Positions 4,505-20,532 of a stretch of DNA of 20,668 bases are shown piece by piece (the stretch's first letter is position 1; each line of letters opens with the position of its first letter). This DNA comes from a virus, in the IMG/VR virus record IMGVR_UViG_3300028394_000366, positions 1-20,668 of that record; one strand, given 5' to 3'. The position numbers were made by a program, and so were the translations under genes. Below the pieces are notes generated by a model. That model did no database searches. It saw only the letters and a list, made by a program, of their open reading frames with translations, and had not been told where the DNA came from.

Positions 4505-6592
4505 TCATACATTTCTTGTTATCGAATTTGACAACACAGGATCTGCCTGAAATTTGTCTTCTGATGCAGATTTTTTCTTGTCTTTGGCAGTTTTAACTGC
4601 ATCACGGACAATAGAAGCCTGTTTCGATTCTTTGATACCTTTTTTCTTCATGGCCATTTGCATACCTCTGTGAGCTGCATCTTTGGCCATTGATTGTGCT
4701 GTGTGTACAGCACCAGATTTATCTTTTACAACACCATTTGATTTTTTGTATGGACCATCAAAAGGTGGTTTGTTAGCATCATCTGCCTTCTTTTGACGAG
4801 CTTGAATAGAGTTATTGTAATTTGGTTCATCCATAGGTTTAAATGCCTCTTTCATATGACCATATTTCTTTTTGTACCAGTCTGGTGTTCCACTTGTTTT
4901 ACGGAAATGTCTTACTGTTGCAGAATCATTTGCTTGGTCACGATACTTGTTTTCAGCAGTAGTGTTGTGTGACTTCATTGCTTCAGCGGCAGCGTGTGCA
5001 TCTTTGGCAATATGAACTAATTCAGCATCAGACTTCTTGTGATACTCATGTCCTTCTAAAGGATGGCGTTGAGATGGACGGCCTTCTTGTAAAGGTGTAT
5101 CATCAATTTCAACAGAGTCTCCAAGATTTTGTCCAGGCCGAGCAGATTTGTAATATGCTGCAGGTGAACTCATATCAATCTTTTTTTCTGGAGTTTGTTT
5201 TACTACAGGGTTGGCTTTATTGTATGCCGTTTTAATACCTACACTTAATTTTCTTTTTTTGTCCGGTGAGGCTGAAGGATATGCCTTATGACCAGCACGC
5301 ATGTATGCGTTTAATTTATCCTTAGATAACTCATCTAAAACTTCTTCTTTCATTTCAGAGTACATATAATCTGCCGCAGTTTGGATATAGTCAGTAGCAA
5401 GAGTAATCTTAGATTGAACCCATTCAGGCATATCAGTATCTGGTTTCAACATATCTTTAATCATTTCACCACATCGTATTAGTGTTGCCAATTGATTCAA
5501 GGCCATATCACCTTCATAACCATACTCTTGTTCATCTTTTGCTTCTGTGGCCAATCTTTGTTTAGCTAAAGACTTTGTTATTCCGTGTTTCTTAACAAAT
5601 GAAGTCTTATCTAATACATCCAAATCACCTTTGACTTGAGGCATAACAATTTCAGATATTTCTTTGAATCTTTTTATCATAGTCTTACTTCCTTTTTTAG
5701 CAAGACCATCTGGCATCTCTTGGGTAGTTGGATCATCACCAACTTCAGATGCTTCTGAAACAGATTTCCATCCACCACCTTTAGATTTGTACCACTTTGA
5801 TGCCCAACCATTTGCATAGGCAGAAGGATAAACATCAAACTTAGATTTTGCTTGAGCAATAGCTCTTGACCACAATTCTGGATTAGTAGGTTTATTTTTT
5901 TCGTTTATTTGTTCCATATTTTCATTTACCTTACTTTTAACATTGATTGGTGCGCCTTGTCTTTCGGCATTTGGATCTTGTTGTCTTTTTCTTCTTACAG
6001 CAGAGGCTCTTTCTTTTTTACTTAAAGACGCTCTTAGTCCTTGTGACATGCATTTGGGTTTAGGTTCACCAGGTTCTCTTGCACAAGGACCAATTGCTTC
6101 GCCCTTACTATTGATTCTTTTCCAATCACCTTTTGGATCAGTTTTACTGAACCACTTTCGTAAGTCTTCTTTGAGTTCTGCTCTTCTCTCATCATTAGTT
6201 TTACGATTTGGACTATCTGGATTTTTATAAGGAGTTTTTCTAAATCCTTCTTTGTCGTAATTACCAGATTTCTTTTTTGCAATTGCAGTAGCAGCCGCAA
6301 TTGCAGCCGCAGCAGATTCATTCATACCACCATGAGTTTCACACATGCCACAATCTGGACATACATGTTCCATCTCAACGCTTTCATTCTGTTTCTTTTT
6401 ACCTGCACAATGAGCCTTTTGACTGAATCCTTTAGGGTGGGAGCAATTAATACTACTTTTGTATTTTTGACTCCAACCTTCTTCCATGTCTTCTTCTTTT
6501 ACACAAGAACCAGGAGAATAAGGCGTTTTACCTGGTTTTGGTTTGTAACCAGGCCAACACCTCCCCTCTAAAAAATCAGAAAACTTTTTCAT
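4505..6592 (-). CDS. large mosaic protein of short phage modules, probable head-internal protein
   Basis: This 695-aa, Lys-rich protein is built from short modules in tandem. It contains CWPGYKPKPGKTPYSPGSC (12-30); NCSHPKGFSQKAHCAGKKK (49-67); a zinc-knuckle-like CPDCGMCETHGG (78-89); a WKRINSKGEAIGPC module (157-170) with a basic follow-on; a DUF5872-like module PELWSRA to KWYKSKGGGW (238-275); a helical module ending near YMYSEMKEE (about 305-417); HPLEGHEYHKKSDAEL to DWYKKKYGH (510-579); and a C-terminal DKFQADPVLSNSI. I know several of these from marine T4-like phage proteins of unknown function. The N-terminus MKKFSDFLEG resembles the capsid-targeting peptides of its neighbours. LKE142, INE231, LDE421, LQE503 and IKE655 are possible prohead protease cuts. 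The ATG is one base after the previous stop and has only a weak SD. Confidence 0.8.
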   Translation of the reverse strand: MKKFSDFLEGRCWPGYKPKPGKTPYSPGSCVKEEDMEEGWSQKYKSSINCSHPKGFSQKAHCAGKKKQNESVEMEHVCPDCGMCETHGGMNESAAAAIAAATAIAKKKSGNYDKEGFRKTPYKNPDSPNRKTNDERRAELKEDLRKWFSKTDPKGDWKRINSKGEAIGPCAREPGEPKPKCMSQGLRASLSKKERASAVRRKRQQDPNAERQGAPINVKSKVNENMEQINEKNKPTNPELWSRAIAQAKSKFDVYPSAYANGWASKWYKSKGGGWKSVSEASEVGDDPTTQEMPDGLAKKGSKTMIKRFKEISEIVMPQVKGDLDVLDKTSFVKKHGITKSLAKQRLATEAKDEQEYGYEGDMALNQLATLIRCGEMIKDMLKPDTDMPEWVQSKITLATDYIQTAADYMYSEMKEEVLDELSKDKLNAYMRAGHKAYPSASPDKKRKLSVGIKTAYNKANPVVKQTPEKKIDMSSPAAYYKSARPGQNLGDSVEIDDTPLQEGRPSQRHPLEGHEYHKKSDAELVHIAKDAHAAAEAMKSHNTTAENKYRDQANDSATVRHFRKTSGTPDWYKKKYGHMKEAFKPMDEPNYNNSIQARQKKADDANKPPFDGPYKKSNGVVKDKSGAVHTAQSMAKDAAHRGMQMAMKKKGIKESKQASIVRDAVKTAKDKKKSASEDKFQADPVLSNSITRNV

Positions 6593-7484: not shown

Positions 7485-7781
7485 TTAGCAATTCCAACGG
7501 CGTAATGCTTTATTGATTGGTGAATCAGGATCTCTTGCATTTTCTGGATTAGTCAATCTCTTTTTCATACCACTCATTCTACTGCAAAAAGATTTTCTTC
7601 TGTTTGCATCTTTTGAACCTGCTTTTAGTTTAGATGGATCTTTTGTTACCGCAGTCTTTAACTTTGAGCCTGGATTTTCTCTACGATAGGCATTAACTGC
7701 CTTCTGTGAAAGACCATCTGTTTTATCGGCTTTATTGACTTTACTCCAGTCTTCGGAAATAAAAGATTTAAATGATTTCAT
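7485..7781 (-). CDS. DUF6321-like small basic protein with capsid-targeting-like N-terminus
   Basis: This 98-aa basic protein starts MKSFKSFISEDWSKV, which matches the T4 internal-protein leader MKTYQEFIAEA in length and in the positions of its aromatic and hydrophobic residues and Glu10 (cut motif ISE). The remainder (KTDGLSQKAVNAYRRENPG, then FCSRMSGMKKRLTNPENARD, then NKALRRWNC) matches what I recall as DUF6321, a small Arg/Lys-rich module found in phages and large DNA viruses. The charge would suit DNA binding inside the head. It overlaps the upstream 744-aa gene by four bases (ATGA). Its function is unknown. Confidence 0.8.
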   Translation of the reverse strand: MKSFKSFISEDWSKVNKADKTDGLSQKAVNAYRRENPGSKLKTAVTKDPSKLKAGSKDANRRKSFCSRMSGMKKRLTNPENARDPDSPINKALRRWNC

Positions 7782-10012
7782 ATGAATTTCTTCGCTTTGA
7801 AAGTTTTAAGGTTGATACCAACTCTTTTTAATTCACCTTCTTTTTGGTCACCAATTGATGCACCAGTTTCATCACCAGTCAACTCTTTAATAGTTTTCTT
7901 TTTTGGATCACGATTATATTTGCCGCCAGTTGTCGCAACAGTATTACTTACACCACGACTAAAGTTTTCACCAGAAGATGACATTGATAAACCGGGTTCA
8001 ATACCCATGTCTATAGATTCAATCACTTTTTCTTTCTGTTTTGCCCTAATTTCGGAGAGACTGATTGTTTTCTTACTGGCGAGCGTGTTTGTGGTTTCGG
8101 TGTAATAACCGGAGTCTTTACTTCCACTGGTGTCTGCACTTCCAACACTTGTTCTGGTACTTCCACTTTCGGCAAAGTAACTTGCACCGGTACTTCTACT
8201 GGAACTTCCTGTTTGACTTCCGTAACTGGCTCTTGCACCGGTTTCTTCGTGAATAGGTTCTTTAGATATTTCAACATTTTCATTCTCCTCTTTGATTTTA
8301 ATGGCATAACCATTTTTATATTTAATTACTTCACCATCGTGAGTGTGTGCATGTTTAGCCGCAGAACGGCGTAACAAAAACTTATACACATCACCACTAG
8401 GTTTACGCAGAAGTTTTACCTTCTTTCCTTCGAACAATTCAAGTATATCATCATTCAAGAATTCTTCTTTAACAGTTTTCTTTGCAGAAGTTCCTGTAGT
8501 TGGAACTTTTGGATTTGCAATTGGTTCTTTAGGCACTTCAACAAGTTTATCATGCACAGAACGATATGTGACTTTGCCCTGTTTGCCGTATCTACCAAAA
8601 CCGAAGTATTGTAATCCTAATTTTCTTGCTTGCTCAGCAGCTGCTGAATCAGGATGAGGTGGTTTCTCTGCACCATTTTTTGGTACAGGTAACGTATCTT
8701 TCTTTTCTAACTCTTGTGCAATCCACTCATCTGCTTGTTTTGTTTTTGGTGGTCTTGCAATGAATTCTTTGATGCCCTTAAAGAGTTGCATTAGTTCTTC
8801 TTTTTTTGCCTTTACAACAGCAGGATTGGCACTTCTCAAGTCTTCAGAGTTATCAAACTCCATATAATTTGCACCAAACAACTTTGAATACTCTGCTCTA
8901 GCTCTCTGTACATTGTCCCATTTATCTTTACGGATGTCTTCTGGCACTGTACGACCACCACGCATACCACGTTCTATGTTTCTCTTTTTAGATACTTCAT
9001 CGTGTGTATTAACTACAAGCATAGATGTTTCATATCCAGCTGATTCTAGTTTTTGTTTAATCTTCTTAGTCTTTTCAATGTCATCGCCTGTGCCATTGAT
9101 AATCAAACCATTTCGGCCTACAATTGCAAGACGTTGACGTAATTCTGTAATGTTCTTTGCACGACCACGAACAAGGTTTCTTTTTTCTTCTTCTGACGCA
9201 GGCATCTTCTTATCAAGACTTTCTTTGTCCATCAGAAACTCAAGTGCCTTATCAGAATTCATTTCAACTAGACCATGACCAGCAAGTGTATTGTCTAGTA
9301 CATAGTCTTTGCCTGAACCAGGACCACCAGCTAAAAACACGGCTTTAAAAATGCCATGATCGTGTACACCTTCTGTTAGAAAGATATCATCGAAATCATC
9401 ATTGATATCTTCTTTGACTTGCATACCTTTACGAACATCATGGTACATTTCTTTTGCATGATGTTCTGGTACATGAGATGGAATACCTTTTCTGAATTCT
9501 TTGAAATTACCAGTTTTTGCATGACCTCTCATCTTAGATGCAGACATGCCTGTAGTACCCTCAGCATCAGGATCACGTTCACCTGCATTGTGTACTGTAA
9601 TCTTTTTGAAGTTATACAACGCACCTTCGTGTGTGCCATTGTATTGTGCAAGTTTCTTTTTGTATTCTGGAACCCGATCCGATCCAGCAACCATGTGCAA
9701 GTGAGTTACACCTTTTTTGTGTAACTCAGCTGCATGTTGTAGAAAGGTGGGTTTTTCTTTGCTTGACGTAGAAAGATTCGTATCAGGAAAGAATCTTTTA
9801 GCGTGTTTGAGTTTTTGTTCTGCTGATAAAGGGTTTTTATCTTTATCTTGAGTATGAGATAGAACAACACTGTGCTCGCCGCTGTGTTGTTTAGAGACTT
9901 CTTTGACTTTGTTAACAACCAATTGATGGCCAGTTGTTACCGGATTTGCTCGCATAAAAGTAAAGGTGTGATGTACCTCTTTAGCTTCTCTCAAAAAATC
10001 TCTAAAATTCAT
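7778..10012 (-). CDS. nucleotidyltransferase - P-loop kinase mosaic protein, probable packaged polyprotein
   Basis: This 744-aa protein is modular. (1) Leader MNFRDFLREA with LRE at 7-9. (2) Cytidylyltransferase/NMNAT-like domain, about 15-195: FMRANPVTTGH (19-29) is the HxGH-type motif, then AGSDRVPEY, and GMSASKMR (155-162) replaces ISxTxxR. (3) P-loop kinase domain, about 220-415: Walker A GGPGSGKD (229-236) with Asp where Ser/Thr is usual, followed by Arg-rich segments (IERGMRGGRTVPEDIR). (4) Module KLGLQYFGFGRYGKQGKVTY (464-483). (5) Module GKKVKLLRKPSGDVYKFLL (529-547). (6) Ser/Gly/Thr-rich linker (about 595-645). (7) C-terminal tail after TIKE710. FLTE214-G and LFE528-G lie exactly between modules. 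NTase followed by kinase recalls NadR, but substrates are unknown. A GAGG is six bases before the ATG. Confidence 0.85.
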   Translation of the reverse strand: MNFRDFLREAKEVHHTFTFMRANPVTTGHQLVVNKVKEVSKQHSGEHSVVLSHTQDKDKNPLSAEQKLKHAKRFFPDTNLSTSSKEKPTFLQHAAELHKKGVTHLHMVAGSDRVPEYKKKLAQYNGTHEGALYNFKKITVHNAGERDPDAEGTTGMSASKMRGHAKTGNFKEFRKGIPSHVPEHHAKEMYHDVRKGMQVKEDINDDFDDIFLTEGVHDHGIFKAVFLAGGPGSGKDYVLDNTLAGHGLVEMNSDKALEFLMDKESLDKKMPASEEEKRNLVRGRAKNITELRQRLAIVGRNGLIINGTGDDIEKTKKIKQKLESAGYETSMLVVNTHDEVSKKRNIERGMRGGRTVPEDIRKDKWDNVQRARAEYSKLFGANYMEFDNSEDLRSANPAVVKAKKEELMQLFKGIKEFIARPPKTKQADEWIAQELEKKDTLPVPKNGAEKPPHPDSAAAEQARKLGLQYFGFGRYGKQGKVTYRSVHDKLVEVPKEPIANPKVPTTGTSAKKTVKEEFLNDDILELFEGKKVKLLRKPSGDVYKFLLRRSAAKHAHTHDGEVIKYKNGYAIKIKEENENVEISKEPIHEETGARASYGSQTGSSSRSTGASYFAESGSTRTSVGSADTSGSKDSGYYTETTNTLASKKTISLSEIRAKQKEKVIESIDMGIEPGLSMSSSGENFSRGVSNTVATTGGKYNRDPKKKTIKELTGDETGASIGDQKEGELKRVGINLKTFKAKKFI
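8023..8277 (-). CDS. possible overlapping gene: Pro/Val/Glu-repeat protein
   Basis: Inside the 744-aa gene, in another minus-strand frame, an 84-codon ORF starts at the ATG at 8277-8275 with AGGAG seven bases upstream, better than most SDs here. It reads MLKYLKNLFTKKPVQEPVTE, continues with PVEVPVQV and VEVPEQVLEV type repeats, and ends in a basic tail (SPKLGQNRKKK). In the same stretch the host frame is a Ser/Gly/Thr linker with many AGT, ACC, GCC and TCC codons, unlike the rest of that gene. A short GGAAGT-type DNA repeat explains both low-complexity readings, so the ORF may be an accident. Without homologues I treat it as a candidate only. Confidence 0.35.
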   Translation of the reverse strand: MLKYLKNLFTKKPVQEPVTEVKQEVPVEVPVQVTLPKVEVPEQVLEVQTPVEVKTPVITPKPQTRSPVRKQSVSPKLGQNRKKK

Positions 10013-16906: not shown

Positions 16907-17042
16907 TTTTTTCTTCCGTTGCGTTTTCGTATCCCCGAGCAAAATCTGATGCATCGGCTTCTAGACCTTCTTGGTTTAAATACGGATTACTATACTTTTT
17001 ATTATTCAAAGATAATTCATAACCTTCTTCATATGGTGCCAT
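16887..17042 (-). CDS. 51-aa small protein, unknown function
   Basis: This short gene lies between the DUF6267-like gene and the 93-aa gene. It starts at the ATG at 17042-17040, overlapping the previous stop by one base (TAATG), with GGAG six bases upstream. It reads MAPYEEGYELSLNNKKYSNP, then YLNQEGLEADASDFARGYEN, and ends ATEEKNGRKEI with TGA at 16889-16887. It has no membrane segment. The DFARGYE ending resembles the C-terminus of small soluble phage proteins, but no family is recognised. SD, coupling and fit in the gap make it a real gene. Confidence 0.7.
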   Translation of the reverse strand: MAPYEEGYELSLNNKKYSNPYLNQEGLEADASDFARGYENATEEKNGRKEI

Positions 17043-18274
17043 TACTTACTCCAATTTTTAGCTGCGTTAAAGTTAGCATGAGCAAATTCTAGTCTATCAA
17101 TTAACTTAACTGCATTACCTTTTAATTTATCTACTGCCACAAAACCTTCTGGATTAGTCACTCTGTAACCATCATCTGTACGAAGGAATGTACCAGTAAC
17201 TTGTTTTAGTTGTTGTAACTTCTTAACAATCATATTCTTTGCATCAACAACATAATTCATCATATCAAAAATTCTAACTAAGTCAGTTCTTGAATTGCGA
17301 AAGAAACGCATAATCTCTGTCTTCTGTAAAGACTTCTTATGTTTAGTATCTTCTTTCTTTGCATCAGCAATATCTTTATTTAGCTTCGCTTCAACCCAAC
17401 GAATCAATTCTGTTGTGTGTGCTTGTGTGTCTCTAATCTTTAGACCTTCACGCACTTTTGTGTTATTGAAAGTCTTGATGTATGTTAGAATAACATCACT
17501 TGCAGCTATTCTATTTAGCGACAAAGAACTAATTGACTGTAATGTTCTACCAGCAACAGATAGAATGCCTGTAATTTGTTTTGTTTCTTCTTCAGTGAAT
17601 GATGCAGTACCAGATGCATCAACAAAATATGCATCACGAAACCAAACATCTTTAGTTGTTGTTAGATTCTTAATATCTATGTTGAATGATGCCTTCATAT
17701 CAGAGAATGTTTTACCTGTGTATGAAGTATGAAAGACAATACCCATTTGTGCAGATGTCATTGTCTTTGCAAGTTTGGAATCTGATGGCACAGCGTATAC
17801 AATTGTGTTTGGTTGAAACGTAATGTATTCTTGGCCATCAATATTCTTTTCTGTGATATCACCTTTAGCAAACATCATATCGCCTTGCAGAACACCCTTG
17901 ATGCCTAATTTAGGCAAATATCGCAATGCAACTTTCAGTTTAGCATTTAAACCTTCACTTGAATGGTTGTTATCAATATCTTCATCGGTGTAATTCAACT
18001 TAGGGTTTGCGTTGAATACGCCTTTAGTACCAACAAAGAACTTACCATTGTCTGGATTAATACCGCAGAATACAGCAGGTGCACCATCCCATTTTGTAGT
18101 AAGATTTACTTTAGATGTAGAATGGCCTGCAAGCATATCTCGCAATGATTGAAGAAAGTTAATAGTATCACGAGCGCCATTGACACCACGATTCAGTATC
18201 TCATCTTCAATGTGTTCAAGGTGCAAATTAGCACCTTCTTTTTTCGATTCGGTTAAAAATTGTGCGAAGTTCAT
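17042..18274 (-). CDS. DUF6267-like protein with ligase/nucleotidyltransferase motifs and capsid-targeting-like N-terminus
   Basis: This 410-aa protein starts MNFAQFLTESKKEG; LTE at 7-9 would be a prohead protease site. NLHLEHIEDEILNRG and TINFLQSLRDMLAG match what I know as DUF6267 of marine T4-like phages. After VNLTTKWDGAPAVFCG, KWDG (61-64) looks like motif I (KxDG, nucleotidyl-lysine) of ATP-dependent DNA/RNA ligases. GTKGVFN (82-88), KGVLQGDMMF (126-135, motif III-like with Asp for Glu), PEGFVAV (375-381, motif IV-like) and VKLIDR (389-394, motif V-like) follow in order. A mainly helical insert (about 230-350) separates III from IV. It could seal nicks or RNA. The ATG overlaps the previous stop by one base and has a weak SD. 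Confidence 0.75.
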   Translation of the reverse strand: MNFAQFLTESKKEGANLHLEHIEDEILNRGVNGARDTINFLQSLRDMLAGHSTSKVNLTTKWDGAPAVFCGINPDNGKFFVGTKGVFNANPKLNYTDEDIDNNHSSEGLNAKLKVALRYLPKLGIKGVLQGDMMFAKGDITEKNIDGQEYITFQPNTIVYAVPSDSKLAKTMTSAQMGIVFHTSYTGKTFSDMKASFNIDIKNLTTTKDVWFRDAYFVDASGTASFTEEETKQITGILSVAGRTLQSISSLSLNRIAASDVILTYIKTFNNTKVREGLKIRDTQAHTTELIRWVEAKLNKDIADAKKEDTKHKKSLQKTEIMRFFRNSRTDLVRIFDMMNYVVDAKNMIVKKLQQLKQVTGTFLRTDDGYRVTNPEGFVAVDKLKGNAVKLIDRLEFAHANFNAAKNWSK

Positions 18275-19416: not shown

Positions 19417-20532
19417 TTATCGAATTATGTCAAGCACTTTATCACCAGTCCAAACTTCTTGTTCTGTACGAATACGACCTTCAGTCTTTAACGTATCAAA
19501 TCGATTGATAGCCTTCTTACGCCACCACTCTGTGATGTTGGCCAGATTATGTTTCTCATAGTTCTCACCTGGAATTAACTTATCAGTCTTTCCATTTACA
19601 AAATCAACCATATTCTTAAATCCATAGTCAGAAATAAAGTACCGTTTTTGTTCGTTTAAATTCTTGGCATTGTCAATAGTCTGTGCAAACTTAGCAGCCT
19701 CTGGCGTGCCTTTGAGGCCAATCTTAATCATAGACACCATTGCATTAGAAATCTTCAACTTGCGTGACGAAGCGCCTTCTGGTGCCAATGGTTCACCAAT
19801 AATGCCTTCTATGTATTCTTTGAGGTCACTATAAGTTTTACCATGCAACATCGGTAAGAAATCACTATCAGTTAACCCTTTGAAACGAATCAGAGGTTTC
19901 ATACCATCATACTGTGATACTGCTTTTGAAGAACCATACAAACTGGTTGTCTCAAACAAGCAGGTGGTCATCTTATACTTTTCATCCAACATTCTCCGCA
20001 CTTCATGTGTTGTACAGATGGCTGCAAGTAATTTACCACCAAGATAATTAAAACCAAATGGTTGTGAAGGCACAATCACGAAACCCATGGCCGCACATTG
20101 ATTAAACAATTGAGCACCACCTTCATGTTGTGTGAATACTTGACCTAGCATATTATTACGAGGTTTACAATTGATAACAGGAGAACCAAGACGAATGAAA
20201 CCAACCCACTTCTGTGACTTCTTTTCAAACACAGCCAGTCTCAAACACCGGCCAGGAATACTGGTCATATTTGAGTGACTAGAAATCATATTAAGATAAA
20301 TGTCCCATCTATCTTGTGGCAACTCAAGGATTTCAAATTCCATATTAGCGGGTGACATGGTAAAATCAGAGAACAAATCTTCTTCTGGTCCCATGCCAGG
20401 CAAAGTAAATGGTCTTTCTGCCATTGAGTTTAGTTTTTGTTCACGCATGTATTCATCAATACGACCAAACTTATCAAAGTAGTTTGAGAATACATCAGCA
20501 CAATGCACCGCTTGTTCTTTAGTTAGCGTCAT
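19417..20532 (-). CDS. DUF4338/DruA-like conserved phage protein
   Basis: This 371-aa protein has a middle part (about 108-220) that reads WVGFIRLGSPVINCKPRN, then LFNQCAAMGFVIVPSQPFGF, NYLGGKLLAAI, a helix with DEKYKM, and CLFETTSLYGSSKAVSQYDG. The order (I-x-LGSPV, LGGKLLA, Tyr followed by an ETT/ETF strand, then G-S/T...Y) resembles DUF4338, the family of the Druantia component DruA, which also occurs in phages. What DruA does biochemically is not settled. The N- and C-terminal parts are helical and unrecognised. It overlaps the upstream gene by four bases (ATGA). Phage homologues need not be defensive; a DNA-processing role is only a guess. Confidence 0.55.
   Translation of the reverse strand: MTLTKEQAVHCADVFSNYFDKFGRIDEYMREQKLNSMAERPFTLPGMGPEEDLFSDFTMSPANMEFEILELPQDRWDIYLNMISSHSNMTSIPGRCLRLAVFEKKSQKWVGFIRLGSPVINCKPRNNMLGQVFTQHEGGAQLFNQCAAMGFVIVPSQPFGFNYLGGKLLAAICTTHEVRRMLDEKYKMTTCLFETTSLYGSSKAVSQYDGMKPLIRFKGLTDSDFLPMLHGKTYSDLKEYIEGIIGEPLAPEGASSRKLKISNAMVSMIKIGLKGTPEAAKFAQTIDNAKNLNEQKRYFISDYGFKNMVDFVNGKTDKLIPGENYEKHNLANITEWWRKKAINRFDTLKTEGRIRTEQEVWTGDKVLDIIR

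Follow-up and report, generated by a model that had tools for sequence, protein, structure and literature searches.

Can a single gene of a T4-like phage deliver several enzymes by having its product cut apart inside the prohead? The question is raised by a protein of 744 amino acids (aa) encoded on the minus strand (positions 7778-10012, stop codon counted in) of IMG/VR virus record IMGVR_UViG_3300028394_000366, of which a stretch of 20,668 nucleotides, here called the window, was analysed. An earlier note, made from the DNA letters alone, had proposed that this open reading frame (ORF) specifies a capsid polyprotein with cut motifs at its domain borders. Comparison with relatives makes it likely that a T4-like phage packages this chain as cargo and that its prohead protease divides the polyprotein into separate enzymes. 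Its parts are the following, a slash marking each predicted point of cleavage:

9986..10012, minus strand, residues 1-9: predicted leader of the capsid-targeting type with cut site MNFRDFLRE/A (leader conservation in relatives)
9401..9985, minus strand, residues 10-204: nucleotidyltransferase of the cytidylyltransferase/NMNAT kind (PHROG 3041 cytidylyltransferase, E 7e-65; confident model fold)
9368..9409, minus strand, residues 202-215: linker with an internal leader-like segment and the putative cut site FLTE214/G (predicted local distance difference test, pLDDT; conservation)
8708..9370, minus strand, residues 215-435: P-loop kinase of the Zeta_toxin/AAA_33 superfamily, polynucleotide/adenylate-kinase-like (Pfam, fold matches)
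8513..8707, minus strand, residues 436-500: small beta module after the kinase (GLQYFGFGRYG...VHDKLVEV), kept in relatives and folded in the model
8423..8509, minus strand, residues 502-530: linker with the candidate site LFE528/G (pLDDT <50; residues 526-529 are 8426-8437)
8288..8428, minus strand, residues 529-575: GKKVKLLRKPSG...IKIKE module, called the GKKVKL module (model strands 560-565 and 568-573; 42 contexts)
8069..8287, minus strand, residues 576-648: low-complexity Ser/Gly/Thr linker (pLDDT <50)
7880..7891, minus strand, residues 708-711: candidate site IKE710/L ([LIMFV]xE at this border in relatives)
7781..7882, minus strand, residues 711-744: conserved C-terminal tail LTGDET...INLKTFKAKKFI (alignments)

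The four motifs on which the earlier note was built, MNFRDFLRE9/A, FLTE214/G, LFE528/G and IKE710/L, are present in the minus-strand ORF as placed there, and FLTE/G is indeed one residue away from the cut site of the T4 major capsid protein gp23, whose record reads FLTE65/A. Listing four understated the total, which is 12 occurrences of [LI]xE in the protein. With the domain limits taken as 13-200 and 216-435, E250, E290 and E416 lie inside domains and E492, E525, E575, E589 and E654 outside. Shuffling of the sequence gives an expectation of 6.83 for [LI]xE (P 0.03) and of 1.56 for [LI]xE/[GAS], of which 3 are observed (P 0.20). Judged from the 744-aa sequence alone, the motifs are unconvincing and their counts hardly exceed chance; single-sequence statistics (motif counts and the inside/outside split) carried little signal and were dropped as main evidence. 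In the AlphaFold model of the protein, pLDDT is below 50 at residues 202-217, 502-530, 576-648 and 670-718, stretches that hold sites 214, 525/528, 589 and 710; the proposed position of 214, 528 and 710 at domain borders is thereby borne out, each falling in a predicted low-pLDDT linker.

The statistical weight comes from the relatives, chiefly for site 214. In Pelagibacter phage HTVC008M the kinase and the nucleotidyltransferase are encoded by two adjacent genes, and in Methylophilales phage Melnitz the two genes lie approximately 50 kb apart. The separate kinase of HTVC008M starts with MIPFILKE/GLYDPGIFKAFFLAGGPGSGK, which aligns with DDIFLTE/GVHDHGIFKAVFLAGGPGSGK of the window, and in further separate kinases on viral contigs the leaders MKTFRELKE/G, MKTYNALLE/G and MKSYQELQE/G abut the kinase. 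FLTE214/G may thus be read as the leader end of a once-separate gene that is now internal to a fused protein. The 168 entries with a recognised kinase comprise 112 unique ones, 62 fused and 50 separate. Glu at P1 and Gly at P1' were found in 112 of 112, P2 being free, and Leu or Ile occupies P3 in all 62 fused kinases and in 48/50 separate ones (the exceptions are Thr in L070 and Val in L171). Among the fused copies six codons are used for the P3 Leu, three for the P3 Ile, four for the P1' Gly and two for the P1 Glu. An alignment of 40 sequences shows no variation at E214 and G215, and conservation of L212 reaches 90% or more. This conserved site sits between separately folded domains, within the predicted unstructured linker.

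The first kinase search was seeded with EG[VL][HY]D, a seed that favours the motif itself; a repeat search with the leader-free alignment A2, which runs from the P-loop (seeds AGGPGSGK and GRxG), left the outcome unchanged. The P-loop regular expression skipped L128, L140 and L142 of the A2 set, and another pattern caught L142, which reads ENLNE/G. A scan of genome contigs as a cellular control yielded 22 loci, of which the majority look like phage contigs and have the same leaders. Two of the control loci, L219 and L220 (25-26% identity), are without LxE/G and too far removed to serve as clean controls; the search pattern did not match L206, and the distant phage homologues L221, L222 and L225 gave no P-loop match by the regular expression. 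The contigs L199-L217, filed under bacterial and archaeal species, bear the phage kinase gene, leader included, and are probably phage contigs binned into metagenome-assembled genomes.

The N-terminal and the internal copies differ in the residues they keep. The leader MNFRDFLRE follows the T4 pattern, with conservation of F3, F6 and E9 at 90% or more across 40 aligned relatives, and the logo of N-terminal leaders of fused proteins has F at P7 (43/52) and at P4 (40/52), [LIF] at P3 and E at P1. At site 214, F is found at P7 in 39/62 copies, P4 is mostly Leu or Ile and aromatic in 8%, and P3 and P1 are complete. For the T4 internal protein IPIII, residues 4 and 7 are described as serving targeting and residues 8 and 10 processing (PMC9026906); these correspond to P7, P4, P3 and P1. 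The internal pattern is what would be expected of copies retained for cutting rather than loading.

The same comparison was extended to other module borders, using every ORF of 70 aa or longer from the retrieved loci with the T4 stretch excluded; the anchors CWxGY (4 contexts) and FDVYPSAYANG (1 context) were dropped from this test. At the kinase border, [LIMFV]xE was found exactly in place in 116/117 contexts (2.27 by chance; 113 with strict [LI]), at the border of the DLRKWF module in 33/34 (0.90 by chance), and at that of the VTVSITGD module, shifted upstream by one more residue relative to the anchor, in 13/13 (0.36 by chance; 10 with strict [LI]). The border of the C-terminal tail, where site 710 lies, has it exactly in place in 28/30 (0.89 by chance), the residue after the predicted cut being Leu or Met in relatives. 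The earlier note had made Gly or Ala after the cut part of the evidence. Such a requirement is unneeded: T4 Alt is cut at ITE6 (PMC5694885) and Leu follows in its sequence record (ITE6/L), so that the Leu after IKE710 is no obstacle. Stand-alone DLRKWF genes have leaders of their own (MKPFSNLQE/D, MKTFNTFVVE/D and MKSFLSFQE/D). Stand-alone DUF6321 genes are also led by leaders, one of them being the next gene of the window (MKSFKSFISE/DW), and elsewhere the DUF6321 module is fused within other proteins, following xE sites.

Site 528 stands apart. In the 20 residues upstream of the GKKVKL module, [LIMFV]xE was found in 35/42 contexts, a loose measure for which the chance level is estimated at roughly 40%, and Gly follows the predicted cut in the window alone of the 42, close relatives reading LFE/E. 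Conservation of FLTEG and LFEG in homologues had been put forward as a check, and loss of the sites in close homologues as a refutation, which did not come about at site 214. The two differ in outcome: LxE/G at the former was lost in 0/62 fused proteins, whereas the Gly of the latter did not extend beyond the window. Overall the polyprotein idea is supported in part, strongly by comparison at FLTE214/G and more weakly at LFE528/G, with IKE710/L at a conserved border. IKE575 is not claimed as a cut site; the motif ending the GKKVKL module is present in 41/42 contexts and perhaps represents no more than its final strand.

Two relatives show other arrangements around these borders. At L068:1990-4635 an AHELVHH stretch, metallopeptidase-like by eye, lies between the nucleotidyltransferase and the kinase, and YLSE/G stands before the kinase. 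At L012:4001-6712 an insert with a weak DUF6934 match separates the kinase unit from the GKKVKL module and is followed by IIME/GAGERQ, possibly another cut site.

Both an S77 (gp21-type) prohead protease and gp23 were found in 10 of the 12 larger records of relatives, and the gp23 of ten records carries LxE or IxE at the T4 cut position by eye, e.g., LSE/A, LNE/A or LQE/T. The family of the first domain is among the proteins reported from virions of S-CREM2, as the cytidylyltransferase gp154, a separate protein (PMC10665884), and of S-SM1, as T4-GC190 (PMC3037559). The N-terminus of S-CREM2 gp154 is MKNFSSFLTE/A. In a set of 204 annotated S-CREM2 proteins (gene 134 and the genes from 206 on lie outside it, and gene 85 is shortened), a strict leader pattern, derived from the leader logo and chosen after the result with a broad pattern was known, was found in 4/45 virion-detected proteins vs 0/159 others (P 0.002). 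The leaders at the start of S-CREM2 gp6, gp13, gp14, gp15, gp136 and gp154 (L227, L229) are of the MKxFxxFLxE type or near it. Virion-detected S-CREM2 proteins with such leaders include an S-adenosylmethionine hydrolase, an APH-like kinase and small proteins, which suggests that injected cyanophage enzymes may share a loading route.

Taken together, the following course of events is proposed. The MNFRDFLRE leader would draw the chain into the prohead core, where a gp21-type protease would cleave after LxE, taking off the leader. Cleavage at FLTE214/G by the same protease would set the nucleotidyltransferase (10-214) apart from the P-loop kinase (215 onward), probably with one or more further cuts nearer the C-terminus, at the module borders about 528 and 710, and the released pieces would enter the host together with the DNA. 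As to origin, every module would once have been encoded on its own, complete with leader and cut site, as it still is in relatives; on gene fusion the cut site would have been retained (P3 and P1 fully), the aromatic targeting residues having drifted.

The internal sites might instead be fusion scars, inherited from the leaders of separate genes and no longer cut. The leader/cut segment clearly stems from separate genes, and the targeting residues P7 and P4 have drifted in the fused copies, both of which suit scars. However, decay would then be expected equally at all positions of a predicted disordered linker, and P3, P1 and P1' are invariant in 62/62 fused proteins while P2, P4 and P5 vary and the codons differ, so that this explanation is unlikely. 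Even less credible is that LxEG serves the structure or function of the kinase domain and has no link to proteolysis. The motif does abut the conserved G(V/L)xD..IFKA and is found in all 112 kinases, with P3 deviating in two, but the model has pLDDT <50 up to residue 217, unrelated modules are preceded by the same xE border, and in separate genes the motif ends a short leader that obeys the T4 leader rules. Equally little can be said for an intact, unprocessed bifunctional enzyme (adenylyltransferase plus kinase) of the NadR kind. NadR, which shares the domain order of the 744-aa protein, is the top fold match of the whole model (6gye, E 1.7e-7), yet with a root-mean-square deviation of 16 A over 454 columns, so that the domains are arranged unlike those of NadR. 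Pfam places the kinase of the 744-aa protein in another family (Zeta_toxin/AAA_33), the downstream modules and linkers, extra here, have no NadR likeness, and the presence of the domains on separate genes in HTVC008M and Melnitz makes a covalent link unnecessary.

A far more serious contender, which we place only somewhat short of an even chance, is that site 214 alone is real and that 528 and 710 are chance matches, with one cut being made and the remainder staying attached to the kinase. The number of [LI]xE/[GAS] matches within chance, the Gly after 528 that is confined to the window and the Leu after 710 all agree with a single cut; the tail border with its [LIMFV]xE in 28/30, the T4 Alt cut before Leu and the xE sites that precede inserted modules of relatives speak for more than one.

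Several points weigh against the preferred reading, that of a cargo polyprotein cut in the prohead. Loading and cutting of the fused protein we infer from sequence comparison. LxE also occurs at a conserved position inside the kinase in 50/118 contexts, so the motif by itself is no proof of a cut; the relatives share descent, and the conservation counts are not independent events. Strict [LI] at P3 lowers the DLRKWF border to 16/34 and the tail border to 16/30. The leader is missing in 9/61 fused proteins with a complete N-terminus, so that packaging by this route may not apply to some fused proteins. The broad leader pattern was found in 4/45 virion-detected S-CREM2 proteins vs 4/159 others (P 0.07). 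Finally, neither the S77 protease nor gp23 was seen in two of the 12 larger records (G004 and G006), and the annotated ORFs of the window, a fragment of 20.7 kb, revealed no protease gene.

The nature of the putative cargo is suggested by fold and family matches. Fold matches of the nucleotidyltransferase include NadD/NMNAT structures, and it carries the TTGH and GMSASKMR motifs. The kinase matches PF06414 (E 2e-13) and PF13671 (E 7e-7), the Zeta_toxin/AAA_33 match spanning residues 223-371, and its fold matches are polynucleotide and adenylate kinases. No cut site stands in front of the small beta module 436-500 at its border with the kinase, and the two probably leave in one released unit. 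Other candidate cargo genes of the window are:

7485..7781, minus strand: next gene, a stand-alone protein consisting of the basic DUF6321 module, with leader MKSFKSFISE/D (PF19846; strict leader pattern)
4505..6592, minus strand: mosaic protein of 695 aa with leader MKKFSDFLE/G and the DLRKWF module right after LKE/ (sequence)
17042..18274, minus strand: DUF6267 protein with the strict leader MNFAQFLTE/S (PF19782, E 1e-113)

In the 695-aa mosaic protein, further stretches come after INE/, VSE/A, LQE/G and MKE/A, and the protein has the appearance of another cargo chain that is cut up. The DUF6267 protein has a KWDG motif, which we take to resemble motif I of ATP-dependent ligases; a search found no solved structures related to this protein. 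The two, kinase and DUF6267 protein, could be injected as a set for nucleic-acid repair. At 19417-20532 on the minus strand, the window also encodes a phage protein related to Druantia DruA (PF14236), with a match to PHROG 19197 over its full length.

Beyond this locus, it seems probable, with somewhat less assurance than for the 744-aa protein itself, that T4-like phages from natural waters, as a widespread group, shuffle injected modules together with their leaders, and that fused leaders act as prohead-protease sites, giving true polyproteins that are cut inside the prohead into separate injected enzymes and small basic proteins. If true, this would show how phages build multi-enzyme payloads: a 9-residue leader would be a loading signal and, once internal, a release signal, and any two leader-bearing genes would be able to fuse with function kept. 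From the sequence pattern one could predict, for many uncultured phages, which enzymes are injected and where their mature ends lie, and the leader-plus-cut unit could be seen as nature's own design by which one chain delivers several proteins.

A search of the open-access literature in PubMed Central (PMC) turned up no description of a prohead protease cutting a phage cargo polyprotein between its enzyme domains, and several known systems come near it. The T4 internal proteins and Alt are packaged, Alt being an enzyme, with a short leader that has hydrophobic or aromatic residues at P7 and P4, L or I at P3 and E at P1. A further cut in Alt lies close to the C-terminus, and the listed Alt sites are ITE6 and LTE619 (PMC5694885). 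The T4 cuts trim single-function proteins, whereas here a conserved internal cut would part two folded enzyme domains and further modules. In the giant phages phiKZ and SPN3US, cleavage occurs after Glu at a short motif, in many substrates and with multiple propeptide cuts; the cuts described in these accounts take off propeptides, and release of two enzymes per chain does not figure in the accounts cited (PMC9026906, PMC5694885, PMC10052503). Phage P1 has the injected, multi-domain proteins DarA, DarB and DdrB, of which DarB is capsid-targeted and DarA and DdrB are described as processed; another protease and other sites are involved, and repeated leader-like border sites do not figure in the descriptions cited (PMC9024508, PMC5512222). 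Polyvalent proteins, which Iyer et al. (2017, PMC5512222) liken to the polyproteins of eukaryotic RNA viruses, also combine several unrelated domains per chain and are thought to be injected with the DNA. According to the same account there is a paucity of them in cyanobacteria, and some are apparently without a peptidase domain. Their release is ascribed there to in-chain peptidase domains. The 744-aa protein has no peptidase family among its Pfam matches (E up to 1); here the sites suit the prohead protease, a protein apart from the chain, and a site is retained with the shuffled modules. Compared with T4 internal proteins and Alt, giant-phage substrates and polyvalent proteins, what would be new is that shuffled modules retain their loading leader as an internal cut site.

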